DNA of 45,267 nucleotides. Source: Candidatus Nomurabacteria bacterium (lineage in GTDB: Bacteria > Patescibacteriota > Minisyncoccia > Phycocordibacterales > UBA9973). Below the pieces are notes generated by a model. It searched no databases and was not told the origin of the DNA. It saw nothing but the letters and a program-made list of their open reading frames with translations. Of the stretch, positions 1 through 5,610 are shown in pieces. The stretch covers positions 1-45,267 of the forward strand of contig JANYAX010000033.1 in the NCBI GenBank assembly GCA_025361085.1. Reading direction: 5' to 3'. Numbering within the stretch: position 1 is the stretch's first letter; every line of letters begins with the position of its first letter. Both the position numbers and the translations under genes were made by a program.

Positions 1-771
1 CTTTTCTGTCCAATCAGAACCGGTAGCAACTAGAGTGTATGTAGTTGTAACAACTGGAGAATATATTTTACTACCTGAAAGGCCTACTGAGCTACCGTAA
101 TCTGTGGTTGTTTGAATATTTGCACTTTGGCAATTACTTGTACCCCAAGATAATGTTGTGCTATCACCAACGGTAATAGAAGTCTTGTTTGCTGTAAAGC
201 TAGTAATTGCACAAGATGGAGCGACCGGCTGATCAACTTTAAAAGCCATTACAATAGAACCTTGAGCACTCCAACCAGTAGCAACACTTCCAACATAAAA
301 ACCACTTGAACTTGTAAAGCCTGAAACAACTTGTTGAGATTGTCCTTGGTTTGGATACCATATAGCACTACCTGGAATTAAAGTAAGTGATGAAGGAAGA
401 TTTACACTAACAGTACTAGAAGATTTCCCCCCTTGATCAGAAGTAATCATAGCCGAAAAAGAATGTCGAGTTGAAGAACCAGTAGATGTATTTAAAGATA
501 TGCGTGTATTTGTGTTTGTAACACTATTAGTATTGTGATAATAAACTCGAACGTTTATTGTCTCTCCTGGGTTAGCACTAATACTCGTCCCATTCCAGCA
601 AGGGTCACCAAAACCTTCTCCAGTATCAGCATTGGTTATGCTAATTGTTGGACAATCAGCATTATCCCCATTCCAGACACTCGATGCTGTTGCAGCAAAA
701 GAACTTTGCCCCACAAAGAGAAAAGCTAAACTTAACAAACCGACTATTATTTTTTTCATATAATTTTTCAT
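1..771 (-). CDS. Secreted Ig-like/adhesin-type protein, 3' end beyond window
   Basis: Reading the minus strand from 771 to 1 gives 257 uninterrupted codons with no stop, so the C-terminus lies outside the window. The N-terminus is a clear signal peptide (MKKIIVGLLSLAFLFVGQSS, then FAATA). After it comes a Ser/Thr/Asn-rich beta-type region (residues about 30-165), then a short Ig-like module containing TSITVGDSTTLSWGTSNC and TTTYTLVATGSD. The same Cys-containing Ig-like style recurs in the 1054-aa protein at 26573-29737. The first ATG is at 771; an ATG at 759 gives the more usual MKKII start, and no Shine-Dalgarno site decides between them. Probably a surface or secreted protein, function unknown. 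Confidence 0.75.
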   Translation of the reverse strand, partial: MKNYMKKIIVGLLSLAFLFVGQSSFAATASSVWNGDNADCPTISITNADTGEGFGDPCWNGTSISANPGETINVRVYYHNTNSVTNTNTRISLNTSTGSSTRHSFSAMITSDQGGKSSSTVSVNLPSSLTLIPGSAIWYPNQGQSQQVVSGFTSSSGFYVGSVATGWSAQGSIVMAFKVDQPVAPSCAITSFTANKTSITVGDSTTLSWGTSNCQSANIQTTTDYGSSVGLSGSKIYSPVVTTTYTLVATGSDWTEK

Positions 772-928: not shown

Positions 929-1696
929 TTAATCCCAGTGGACAGGTACGCCCACCGGACCTCCGATTTCACCGCTTTCACCGCTAAGGCGATGGACCAA
1001 GAAATAAATTCCTGTGCCTATCAAAACGGCGGCAGTACCAGCAATAATCCAAGGCAATGGATTTTTTTTAACTACTGGTGGTAGCAAAGGCTCAGAAACC
1101 TTATTTTCCGCCAGCGGTTTTGTGATAACAGAGGACCCGATATCTTTTGGAAGATCGGGTTTCCCAAGATCAACTTTTGGTATTTCAGTCAACGGAGTTG
1201 GCTTGAGACCAAAAGACGTTTCGGTTTTAACCTCCGGAACCACAACCTCCTCGTTCTTCTTCTTAGGAATTGTGACGGGAATTATTTTTACAACATTTCC
1301 ACAGTCACCTTTCATAATAGGAACAGAGTGAGTCCCGATTCTGAAAACCCAACCAAATCCGGTCCACTTATGACCCAAGCTAGGGTGCATTTTTTTTGAG
1401 ATAGAGTCATACCCGGAGTTTTTGTAACCTCCCTCTTTAAGGTAAATCTCTTCCCAATACAAATGGGCCATTATAAACTCAGGGTTAGCAGATACAACAC
1501 AGGTCGTATCTTTAAGACCAAAGTTTATAACATCAACCAAATAAGAAAGGTACGCCTTACCCTTCGGTGAGTTTTCAGAAGCCAAATCGTAGAGCTTCTG
1601 TTTGGTCGGATTATCATACGGGAACACGGGTCCCGTTTGCCCGGCTAACTTAAGCCCAACTAGAACTAAAGTTAACATCACTATTATTTTTTTCAT
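929..1696 (-). CDS. Exported protein with C-terminal membrane anchor, unknown function
   Basis: 255 aa. Residues 1-20 form a signal peptide (MKKIIVMLTLVLVGLKLAGQ). Residues about 21-130 form a compact domain with two cysteines and several aromatic residues. Residues about 140-215 are a Pro/Lys/Val-rich linker. A single membrane helix follows (WIIAGTAAVLIGTGIYFLV, about 217-235), then a short Gly-rich tail. This suggests a wall-spanning domain held in the membrane by its C-terminus. I do not recognise the family. It is monocistronic, with its own promoter (1800-1828), a long hairpin leader (1709-1788) and a terminator (865-902). It looks less AT-rich than its neighbours, which might indicate acquisition, though composition was judged by eye. 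Confidence 0.75.
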   Translation of the reverse strand: MKKIIVMLTLVLVGLKLAGQTGPVFPYDNPTKQKLYDLASENSPKGKAYLSYLVDVINFGLKDTTCVVSANPEFIMAHLYWEEIYLKEGGYKNSGYDSISKKMHPSLGHKWTGFGWVFRIGTHSVPIMKGDCGNVVKIIPVTIPKKKNEEVVVPEVKTETSFGLKPTPLTEIPKVDLGKPDLPKDIGSSVITKPLAENKVSEPLLPPVVKKNPLPWIIAGTAAVLIGTGIYFLVHRLSGESGEIGGPVGVPVHWD

Positions 1697-1868: not shown

Positions 1869-3569
1869 ATGACCATTATATTTGATGATGAAAAAGAGAA
1901 AAAAAATCTTACTGAGTTAAGGAAACAGGAAGAAGAAGATTTGGTGCAGATGATAGCTGAAGCTAAATATGGTATACCACCCATTAATTTGTCTGGGGTA
2001 ACGATTGATAACAATGCACTAAGAGCAATCTCAGAAAGCGAAGCTAGAGAGTTAGAAATAGCCCCATTCAAAGTTGTCGGTAAGAATATTCACGTTGCAG
2101 TCAGATCTCCTCAGCCAGAAAAACTTGAGAGTTTGAAAAATTATTTTTCTGAACATGATTTTATCCCCCATTTTTATATGGCTTCAACTGCTAGTCTAGA
2201 AAAAGCTTGGGAACGTTACAAGGAGATGTCGTTCGCCTCTGAATCAAGAATGGGTGCCGTGACAATTTCTGGAGAAATATTGAAAAATCTCATGGCTGAG
2301 ATAAAAAACATAGACGATATAAAAAGCGCCATTACAGAAACTGAAAAAGATAAAACTCGTACGACTTCCCACATTCTAGAAATTGTTCTCGCTGGAGCAA
2401 TTGCTGTTAATGCATCAGATATACACTTCGAACCAGAAGAAAATATGGTTCGATTACGTTTTCGTTTAGATGGAGTTTTGCATGAAGTAATGCAATTACC
2501 TTTGGCAGTTCATAAATTTATAAATTCTCGCGTTAAACTTATTTCGGGTTTAAAAATTACAACAACCGCTATCGCGCAAGATGGTAGATTCAGTGTATTC
2601 CTTAATGAAACAGAAATAAATATCCGTTCTTCTATCATGCCCGGAGCTTATGGCGAATCAATAGTGTTGAGATTATTGAATCCAAAATCTATCCGCGGAA
2701 AATTAGAAGAAGCTGGTATAGAGCCCAAGTTATATGAAGTTTTTATGGAGGAAATCAGAAAGCCCAATGGTCTTATTCTTCTAACTGGTCCAACTGGGTC
2801 AGGTAAAACAACCACACTTTATTCCTTCTTACAGAAAATTTATTCTGATGAGGTTAAAATTATTACAATCGAAGACCCTATCGAATACCACCTTCCTGGA
2901 ATTTCACAAACTCAAGTAGAGGAAGAAAAAGATTATACATTTCTAAACGGCCTCCGTTCTGCTTTGCGACAAGACCCCGATGTAATAATGGTCGGAGAAA
3001 TTCGTGACGCTGAAACCGCAAAAACTGCTGTGGAGTCAGCACTTACTGGGCACCTAGTTTTCTCGACACTCCATACGAACAATGCGGCTGGTGTTATCCC
3101 CCGTCTCATCGACCTTGAAGTAAATCCAAAAATATTAGTTTCAGCTTTATCATTGTCTATCGCTCAACGTCTTGTCCGAAAACTTTGTAACGTATGCAAA
3201 AAAGAAAAAGTCATAACCGACGAAGAAATGCGTACAATAAAAACTATATATGAAAAAGCAAAAAATGATGGGAAGGATTTTATAAATTACGGAGTTGATA
3301 TGAACGCACCACTCAAAATATATGAAGCAGTTGGTTGTGATAAATGTAACAAAACAGGATACCAGGGGCGAATGGGAATTTTTGAAGCGATTAAAAATGA
3401 TAAAGATATCGAGGAAATAATTGTAAAAAATCCAAGTGAAAGAGAAATCAAAGCTATACAAGCAAAACAAGGAACACTTAGTATGCGAGAAGATGGAATA
3501 ATAAAAACACTGAAAGGAATTACGTCGCTAGATGAAGTTGCGAGTGTGGTAGATCTAAACGAAGAATAA
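1869..3569 (+). CDS. pilB: GspE/PilB-family type IV pilus (type II secretion-like) assembly ATPase
   Basis: 566 aa, the usual length for PilB/GspE. An N-terminal GspE_N-like domain (about 25-130) precedes the secretion NTPase domain. Visible motifs are Walker A GPTGSGKT (residues 307-314), the Asp-box region ITIEDPIEY, Walker B-type DPDVIMVGEIRD and the His-box STLHTNNA. A C-terminal zinc-binding pair, CNVCKK and CDKCNKTGYQGR, is typical of PilB/GspE and absent from retraction ATPases (PilT). In the family this cytoplasmic hexamer drives pilin polymerisation. The other pilus genes (pilC, pilM-O, pilins) are not in the window. The gene stands alone between two exported-protein genes and ends at a bidirectional terminator. 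Calling it PilB rather than GspE is inference from the presumed lineage. Confidence 0.93.
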   Translation: MTIIFDDEKEKKNLTELRKQEEEDLVQMIAEAKYGIPPINLSGVTIDNNALRAISESEARELEIAPFKVVGKNIHVAVRSPQPEKLESLKNYFSEHDFIPHFYMASTASLEKAWERYKEMSFASESRMGAVTISGEILKNLMAEIKNIDDIKSAITETEKDKTRTTSHILEIVLAGAIAVNASDIHFEPEENMVRLRFRLDGVLHEVMQLPLAVHKFINSRVKLISGLKITTTAIAQDGRFSVFLNETEINIRSSIMPGAYGESIVLRLLNPKSIRGKLEEAGIEPKLYEVFMEEIRKPNGLILLTGPTGSGKTTTLYSFLQKIYSDEVKIITIEDPIEYHLPGISQTQVEEEKDYTFLNGLRSALRQDPDVIMVGEIRDAETAKTAVESALTGHLVFSTLHTNNAAGVIPRLIDLEVNPKILVSALSLSIAQRLVRKLCNVCKKEKVITDEEMRTIKTIYEKAKNDGKDFINYGVDMNAPLKIYEAVGCDKCNKTGYQGRMGIFEAIKNDKDIEEIIVKNPSEREIKAIQAKQGTLSMREDGIIKTLKGITSLDEVASVVDLNEE

Positions 3570-3629: not shown

Positions 3630-4238
3630 CTACTTAATAATTTTGGTTCCGGTGGCTTTTTTCCCTCCAGCTGAACCGTTAATCGTGTTCTGGCTTTTGA
3701 GACTATAAAAGTTAGACAGTAGATGATCAATTCCATCTCCTTTCCCTTTTATAGAAGCTTTTACCGAGTAGGGTTTATCTTCGAACGTAATTGTTTTATT
3801 AGCGTTCAAAGTAAAACTTTTGTCTTGTTGTACAAAAAATGAAAATGTGTAATTTTGATCTTCATCAAATGAAATTACCATTTCCTTAATCTTTCCGGCT
3901 TCTCTTTTTGCCTCTATTAGAACTCCAGGGGTCAGAGCTGGTACTACATAAGAGATAACCGTTGCGCTATCTATTTTGTAGACATTACCATCTTTAAACA
4001 TTGTCACCTTCTTGGGAATCTCGGCGACAACATTTATTTCATACTCGTTAAAAAAAGTGACCGGATCGGTCGGGTCAATACCGGTGTATGTATCCTGCAA
4101 CCACAACTCCGGCTTTTTCTGCTCTAACTGTTGCGGCTGCACTTCGGGGACAACTGGTTTTATAGTTGTTATCTTTTTATGCGAAGCACAACTAACCAAC
4201 ACTAGCCCTATCAAAAGGGCAAAAACGATTTTTTTCAT
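3630..4238 (-). CDS. Predicted lipoprotein, unknown function
   Basis: 202 aa. The N-terminus MKKIVFALLIGLVLVSCASH is a typical lipoprotein signal peptide, with lipobox LVSC and Cys17 as the acylation site. A Pro/Gln/Lys-rich linker (about 20-45) follows, then a beta-rich domain (about 50-185) and a basic Gly/Lys tail. No family is recognised. The start is secured by a textbook GGAGG (4246-4250) seven nt before the ATG; such a site is rare in this window, and together with the less AT-rich coding sequence it hints at a different origin. A promoter-like TTGACT-17-CATAGT lies upstream. Confidence 0.75.
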   Translation of the reverse strand: MKKIVFALLIGLVLVSCASHKKITTIKPVVPEVQPQQLEQKKPELWLQDTYTGIDPTDPVTFFNEYEINVVAEIPKKVTMFKDGNVYKIDSATVISYVVPALTPGVLIEAKREAGKIKEMVISFDEDQNYTFSFFVQQDKSFTLNANKTITFEDKPYSVKASIKGKGDGIDHLLSNFYSLKSQNTINGSAGGKKATGTKIIK

Positions 4239-4318: not shown

Positions 4319-4356
4319 TAGACAACGAAAAATACCCTTTGAGATAAAGGATATTT

Positions 4357-4525
4357 AAAAAAGAAAAAAACATAAATCTCTAAACAATCCTTTGAAAGCA
4401 TGCGCGATCAAAGTAATATAAGATTACAGGATAGCCACAGTAAATATAAATATAAACCAAGACGTCCTATGCACATATATAGAGCACGGGGCCGATTGCT
4501 TAGAGATTTATGTCCTCTTCGCAAA
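4357..4525 (-). ncRNA. Candidate structured small RNA closed by a 19-bp stem with U-tract
   Basis: The arms 4371-4389 and 4494-4512 are reverse complements apart from one position. On the minus strand that position is a G-U pair, so the 19-bp stem is continuous; on the plus strand it is an A-C mismatch. Minus-strand transcription of the 3' arm is followed directly by a T-rich run (seven T, C, six T), as in an intrinsic terminator. Inside the closing stem are smaller hairpins: GTAAT/ATTAC with loop CTTAT, CTTTGA/TCAAAG, and TCTAT/ATAGG. The 5' end is guessed from a TATTAT box at 4537-4532 with a weak -35. The RNA ends before the lipoprotein promoter. I matched it to no known family: the SRP RNA, RNase P RNA and tmRNA signatures are absent. 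The long closing stem is reminiscent of 6S RNA but that is not shown. Confidence 0.5.
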
Positions 4526-4527
4526 AA

Positions 4528-4536
4528 TGCTATAAT
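4528..4536 (+). promoter_or_regulatory. Extended -10 element upstream of ruvB
   Basis: TGCTATAAT is a perfect extended -10. Transcription would start near 4543 and give a leader of about 45 nt to the ATG at 4588. The -35 is weak and lies in the end of the candidate RNA gene on the other strand. Confidence 0.45.
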
Positions 4537-4587
4537 ACAAACAGAATATGAACTTTCTATGAGAGAGTATATCATATTACTAATATA

Positions 4588-5610
4588 ATGTCAAGCCCAA
4601 ACAAAACACCAAAAGACGTTCGTCCCGAGTCCTCAGTCCCGAGGGATGACGTATTTTTAGACCAAACTCTCCGTCCAGAAGTTTGGAATGAATATATTGG
4701 TCAAGAAAACATCAAAGCAAACCTAAAAATACTTCTAACTGCGGCCGAGGAGCGTTCTCACCCAGCAGAACACATCCTTTTTTATGGACCTCCAGGTCTT
4801 GGAAAAACAACTTTGGCACATTTGATTGCAAAGGAAACCAGAAGACAAATAAAAATTACCTCGGGTCCTGCGATTGAAAAAGTTGGAGATCTCGCTTCTA
4901 TTCTTACAAATCTTGCTCCGGGTGATATCGTCTTCATAGATGAAATACACCGACTCAATAAAATGGTTGAAGAGATTCTATACCCCGCAATGGAGTCTGG
5001 TGTTTTAGATATTATTATCGGCAAGGGTCCATCAGCGCGCACAATACAACTTGAGCTTCCTCCCTTTACACTTATCGCAGCCACAACGCGTATCGCCCTT
5101 TTATCATCCCCTCTTCGCTCACGATTCTCTGGTGGAGTATTCCGACTTGAATTCTACACTCATGAAGAAATTAAAAAAATAATTGCACGTTCAGCAAAAA
5201 TTCTTGGCGTAGAATTAGATGAAGAAGCTCTAGACGAAATCGCTAAACGCGCCAGATTCACTCCTCGTACTGCAAATTATTTCTTAAAACGTTGTCGTGA
5301 TTATGCTCAAGTTCACAAGATTCCACTAACAAAAGATTCTGTCAAAAAAGCATTGGCATTACTCGAGATAGATGAGCTAGGGCTTTCTTCTTCTGACCGA
5401 CGAATTCTTAATATAATAATTTCTAAATTCAGTGGTGGTCCCGTCGGGTTAAAAACAATAGCCGCGGCCACAAGTGAAGAAGAAGCAACAATAGAAGAAG
5501 TTGTCGAGCCATATCTCATTCAGCTCGGGCTTCTTGATCGCACCACTCGAGGAAGAATTGTAACAAAAAAGGGGTATGCGCATTTAGGTTATGAGCATAA
5601 AGATAATTAA
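4588..5610 (+). CDS. ruvB: Holliday junction branch-migration ATPase RuvB
   Basis: 340 aa, normal length. AAA+ motifs: Walker A GPPGLGKT (67-74), Walker B FIDEIHR (D118/E119), sensor-1 AATTR and arginine finger SPLRSRF (about 174-180), followed by the C-terminal winged helix (FSGGPVGLKTIA through GRIVTKKGYAHLG). RuvB hexamers drive branch migration of four-way junctions with RuvA; ruvA is not in the window, but ruvC follows directly. The N-terminus (residues about 10-22, VRPESSVPRDD) carries a repeat-like DNA stretch at 4621-4650 and replaces the usual short family leader; see findings. The start ATG at 4588 overlaps a TATAATG sequence, but I favour transcription from the extended -10 at 4528. 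Confidence 0.96.
   Translation: MSSPNKTPKDVRPESSVPRDDVFLDQTLRPEVWNEYIGQENIKANLKILLTAAEERSHPAEHILFYGPPGLGKTTLAHLIAKETRRQIKITSGPAIEKVGDLASILTNLAPGDIVFIDEIHRLNKMVEEILYPAMESGVLDIIIGKGPSARTIQLELPPFTLIAATTRIALLSSPLRSRFSGGVFRLEFYTHEEIKKIIARSAKILGVELDEEALDEIAKRARFTPRTANYFLKRCRDYAQVHKIPLTKDSVKKALALLEIDELGLSSSDRRILNIIISKFSGGPVGLKTIAAATSEEEATIEEVVEPYLIQLGLLDRTTRGRIVTKKGYAHLGYEHKDN

Follow-up and report, generated by a model that had tools for sequence, protein, structure and literature searches.

The intergenic region between a pilB/gspE-type gene and ruvB in Candidatus Nomurabacteria raises the question of whether it carries a gene of its own and, if so, on which strand and of what kind. It lies within a 45,267-nt stretch of contig JANYAX010000033.1, referred to here as the window. 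A preliminary description had proposed an independent small RNA on the minus strand, spanning positions 4357–4525 and closed by a 19-bp stem, and had named conservation in relatives, covariation and strand as the points on which the proposal would turn. We consider it probable that the region holds a single-copy noncoding RNA gene of about 200 nt on the minus strand, which is driven by a sigma70 promoter, adopts a branched fold, is conserved across the class in the arrangement pilB–RNA–ruvB, and acts in trans while bound to protein.

The proposed stem is present (4371–4389 paired with 4494–4512) and forms the inner part of a longer helix, P1, which runs for 27 bp without a break on the minus strand when G·U pairs are allowed. 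The strand asymmetry reported for it is also real, as one A·C mismatch on the plus strand becomes a G·U pair on the minus strand. A search of the 45-kb window for stems of at least 19 bp, over a range of 60–180 nt, found P1 on the minus strand only, while 20 shuffles of the window yielded no such stem. The folding energy of the minus strand corresponds to a z-score of −6.4, equalled by none of 200 shuffles, compared with −4.1 for the plus strand. A separate 27-bp hairpin at 1709–1788, located between two genes and present on both strands, is probably a bidirectional terminator.

A structure comprising P1, P2, P3–P4 and P5 was drawn by hand from 40 homologues (alignment A1; Table 1). The sequences support a predicted overall fold in which the long P1 encloses a three- to four-way junction of P2, P3–P4 and P5. 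P2 is a long hairpin in two homologues (L272 and L332) and is absent from some class members, such as L343. One of the internal hairpins in the preliminary description, CTTTGA/TCAAAG, corresponds to P5; the other two, GTAAT/ATTAC and TCTAT/ATAGG, fall outside the conserved structure. A pseudoknot search among the unpaired alignment columns returned nothing beyond extensions of the apical stem.

Table 1. Positions of the RNA gene, its helices and its neighbours in the window.
Feature	Position	Strand	Basis or remark
sigma70 promoter of the RNA	4566..4594	-	−35 TTGACA at 4594–4589, 17-nt spacer, extended −10 TATACT ending at 4566
Whole transcript, inferred, ~208 nt	4352..4559	-	Folding z-score −6.1
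Conserved structured core	4367..4518	-	Class-wide model R3, 101 bits, E 5.5e-26; R1, 142.5 bits
P1 closing stem, 5′ strand, 27 bp	4494..4520	-	Covariation order-wide and class-wide
P2 small hairpin, immediately 3′ of P1 5′ strand	4483..4493	-	3 bp in the window (weak); covaries in relatives
P3–P4 long arm	4416..4480	-	Conserved AGGAC-G..YUGG / CUGG..C-YA-UCCU, tandem U·G/G·U pairs
P5 hairpin CUUUGA..UCAAAG, abutting P1 3′ strand	4390..4413	-	Covariation in relatives
P1 closing stem, 3′ strand, leading into U-rich tail	4363..4389	-	27-bp pairing with 4494–4520
U-rich tail	4352..4369	-	Sequence; probable intrinsic terminator jointly with P1
ruvB, divergent, 5′ side of RNA	4588..5610	+	Pfam RuvB_N/RuvB_C; synteny
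Probable ruvB promoter, extended −10 ATGCTATAAT	4527..4536 (−10 at 4531–4536)	+	Faces the RNA promoter
pilB/gspE-type ATPase, 3′ side of RNA, convergent in most relatives	1869..3569	+	Pfam T2SSE, MshEN; synteny

Covariation is present in every helix. In A1, 91.1% of the cells pair and double-sided changes occur in 37 of the 57 pairs. This family alignment contains 282 double-change cells, compared with 85 in shuffles, and the signal was lost when partners were slid by 1–3 columns. A1 was aligned independently of any model, though the structure was drawn from it. Double-change cells number 852 versus 260 in shuffles across the order (alignment A3, 94 sequences) and 574 versus 185 across the class (alignment A6), where 52 of the 57 pairs vary on both sides; both alignments are model-fitted, so that these counts are biased towards the model structure. 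The length of the core ranges from about 124 to 214 nt among homologues, which indicates that it is non-coding. Given this variable length and the covarying helices, an open reading frame on the plus strand (4400–4588) was set aside as a protein-coding explanation.

The same alignments bear on the strand. The consensus folding energy of A1 (alifold) is −42.4 kcal/mol for the minus strand versus −12.2 for the plus strand, and the minus strand folds better in all 40 family sequences and in 87 of 94 sequences order-wide. A promoter directed towards the RNA (score of at least 11 out of 13, within 150 nt of the RNA) was called at 167 of 212 distinct loci, versus 5 of 212 on the opposite strand and 0.6% in shuffles, which preserve neighbouring bases only roughly. 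The promoter in the window matches 11 of 12 consensus positions and carries the TG of an extended −10. It had been missed in the preliminary description, whose span is consequently too short: with the 5′ end placed about 7 nt past the −10 box and the 3′ end at the U-tract, the transcript would begin near 4559 and finish near 4352, while the assignment of a structured RNA to the minus strand stands. The T-rich tail noted after the 3′ arm is there as well, and P1 3′ strand and the U-tract would together end transcription. U-rich 3′ ends were found at 117 of 212 loci, versus 39% in shuffles; a clear U-tract is thus not universal among loci.

Could the element instead belong to the plus strand, as a ruvB leader or a pilB 3′ UTR, or be a mere elaborate terminator? 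The stem does pair on the plus strand, as its z-score there indicates, but alifold and every family sequence prefer the minus strand, the promoters point in the minus direction, and the conserved G·U pairs would turn into A·C; we assign this explanation a close to negligible probability. An independent transcription unit on the minus strand, rather than a ruvB leader, is strongly supported by sequence analysis, and the original proposal of an independent small RNA appears well founded on conservation, covariation, folding strand and promoter direction.

Homologues are widespread. BLASTN detected the RNA in 58 of 100 relatives, and an Infernal model, R1, matched 214 of 297 genomes of the window's GTDB order. 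Matches to an order-wide Infernal model of 94 sequences (R2) extend into other orders of the class. We also built a class-wide model, R3, without the window or its genus; the window's score against it is given in Table 1, with E-values from short calibrations. Of the 41 rows in A6, on which R3 is based, a single one (L266) is a reverse-strand match, and it slightly weakens the model. R3 was positive in 25 of 32 sampled class genomes, and gave one weak match in 348 other Patescibacteria. This match (L350, 24 bits) was taken as chance, since neither ruvB nor pilB is nearby; the matches L305 and L308 are likewise doubtful. The class is taken to be Paceibacteria from the names on the contig records matched in a GTDB scan, whose titles include Nomurabacteria, Taylorbacteria, Zambryskibacteria, Vogelbacteria, Adlerbacteria, Yonathbacteria and Paceibacterota. 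Loss, incomplete assembly or divergence may account for the roughly one-fifth of sampled class genomes without a match.

The sequence pattern of the RNA also occurs in two contigs titled Gracilibacteria and Nanoarchaeota (L169 and L204); these titles are probably binning errors, and L169 shows the Paceibacteria locus. The 771-kb genome to which the window belongs contains a single copy, ruling out a MITE or other repeat. In another contig, L128, two copies lie in tandem (301–673, minus strand), with near-identical arms and differing closing stems, resembling a duplication of the 6S-1/6S-2 type.

At nearly all loci the RNA is divergent from ruvB and convergent with pilB/gspE. Weak model matches also fall at the pilB–ruvB locus, which provides independent confirmation because the model is blind to synteny. 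The usual downstream neighbour is the convergent pilB; in the window only, a co-directional lipoprotein gene (3630–4238, minus strand), possibly acquired, is inserted between the two and adjoins the RNA. With no constant co-directional gene 3′ of the RNA, a riboswitch or leader of a downstream gene was rejected. The lipoprotein gene and a second signal-peptide/lipoprotein gene (929–1696, minus strand) have Bacteroidota-like N termini, and neither matches a Pfam family above the cut-off.

The spacing between the RNA and ruvB is always short (about 50–450 nt), while that between the RNA and pilB is variable. In the window, the −35 box is the complement of the first codons of ruvB, ATG-TCA-A (4588–4594), and an exact complementarity between −35 TTGACAT and the ruvB start ATGTCAA is found at 119 of 168 loci with an RNA-facing promoter. 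This placement within the ruvB start brings the two promoters face-to-face. It also makes the genes hard to separate and their linkage permanent, and is the likely explanation for how tightly the RNA stays with ruvB. A promoter whose −35 box overlaps the start codon of its neighbour represents a clear case of interlocked genes. On the ruvB strand, TGNTATAAT occurs at 19% of loci versus 0.8% of shuffles.

These features also suit an alternative in which the chief function of the locus is to control ruvB in cis: with face-to-face promoters and overlapping 5′ ends, synthesis of the RNA would repress ruvB and the RNA itself would be a by-product. The start-codon overlap, the constrained spacing on the ruvB side and the extended −10 on the ruvB strand all favor such an arrangement. 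However, interference alone would not preserve a covarying structure of 57 pairs together with conserved helix sequences, and the overlap by itself suffices for the linkage; we regard a purely local role as quite unlikely.

The RNA gene that we favor was compared with known RNA families. ARAGORN found no tRNA or tmRNA in the window, and a search of the region against Rfam 15 gave no match at the gathering score and only a chance snoRNA match at E ≤ 10. RNase P RNA (RF00010) was rejected as an identity because its matches lie elsewhere, both in relatives and in the window's own genome (C15:511–831). That own-genome copy scores 29 bits, compared with up to 138 in sister genomes, and is divergent or damaged.

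SRP RNA deserves separate consideration. Neither Ffh (ffh) nor 4.5S RNA (ffs) was detected in Parcubacteria genomes (PMC4508563), and both are likewise missing here from 13 genomes, the window's own and 12 relatives: the SRP RNA models RF00169 and RF01854 matched none of the 13, nor did the SRP54 M domain PF02978, which was found in 14 of 14 controls. The breadth of the RNA, comparable to that of a housekeeping RNA, would fit a stand-in for SRP RNA in a protein-targeting particle; its co-occurrence with SRP loss was examined within the window's order. The RNA nevertheless lacks any SRP motif and, without the Ffh M domain, has no known partner. Identity with SRP RNA was rejected for want of a model match and of the M domain, and the stand-in role appears very improbable.

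How might the RNA act? Conserved nucleotides lie in helices, with almost no conserved single-stranded stretch, which points to protein binding. We propose that the RNA would work in trans, bound to one or more conserved proteins, with a putative recognition surface formed by the conserved sequences within P1 (CUSUARGCAA/UUGCYUASAG) and within the P4 arm (GGAC..UGG/CUGG..AUCC); the conservation pattern is the ground for this step. Antisense base-pairing as the main action seems unlikely, as few conserved nucleotides are unpaired. The single locus retained class-wide and the near-consensus promoter suggest that the RNA is probably abundant and important.

A very large share of the candidate phyla radiation consists of Paceibacteria, whose genomes measure about 1 Mb at most and have lost much standard machinery, SRP among it. 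These Paceibacteria/Parcubacteria probably depend on an undescribed RNA. Being absent from Rfam, it is overlooked by annotation pipelines that rely on that database; a model from the present alignments would annotate it across Paceibacteria genomes and make its expression testable with strand-specific metatranscriptomes.

The main rival reading is a possible 6S-like role, in which the RNA would take the place of 6S RNA in Paceibacteria, binding sigma70-RNA polymerase by imitating a promoter; P1 would serve as the downstream duplex and P3–P4 as the upstream one. The layout is similar in size, long closing stem, apical arm and a hairpin on the 3′ strand of the junction, and the best-conserved sequence is the 5′ strand of P1, where the pRNA template would lie. 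The occurrence of the two RNAs is complementary: matches to Rfam 6S are confined to other classes of Patescibacteria (27 of 333 genomes), with none in the 100 relatives. Yet the 6S model RF00013 does not match the RNA, with no hit to the region at E ≤ 10 and none in its own genome, while control genomes were positive. Conversely, the 6S genes of Patescibacteria, which occupy other loci and lack the P4 motif, give no match to R3. The covarying P2 on the 5′ strand of the junction, very long in L272 and L332, leaves no large open bubble. The 6S genes of other Patescibacteria classes (L276–L294) have the canonical shape and mostly score under the Rfam 6S cut-off, suggesting that Rfam under-detects 6S in Patescibacteria. 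Membership of the 6S family was rejected on models, shape and motif, and we judge the counterpart reading unlikely. A broader conjecture, tentative and on balance doubtful, is that a Paceibacteria ribonucleoprotein, so far undescribed and probably essential, is built around the RNA; it would have arisen or been retained in bacteria that have lost SRP and lack a recognisable 6S RNA, with the role of either or a new one.

Compared with known systems, the RNA shares with 6S RNA (RF00013, including L276–L294) its size class, sigma70 promoter, closing stem, apical arm, 3′-side hairpin and single copy. It thus has the long closing stem and apical stem-loop of 6S, but not the large unpaired central bubble with a single-stranded 5′ strand: a covarying hairpin takes the place of the open strand, and motif, locus and lack of cross-matches also set it apart. 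With SRP RNA (RF00169, RF01854) it has in common a housekeeping-type breadth, whereas no model matches it and the M domain is gone. raiA and OLE are lineage-restricted structured noncoding RNAs whose structure was known before their function. The RNA resembles them in combining a conserved fold with a fixed neighbourhood in one lineage, and differs in which lineage and locus these are. The family is new relative to Rfam 15 and to the literature searched, in which no publication dealt with 6S RNA or novel structured RNAs from this lineage, while its kind, the structured independent bacterial noncoding RNA, is already known.
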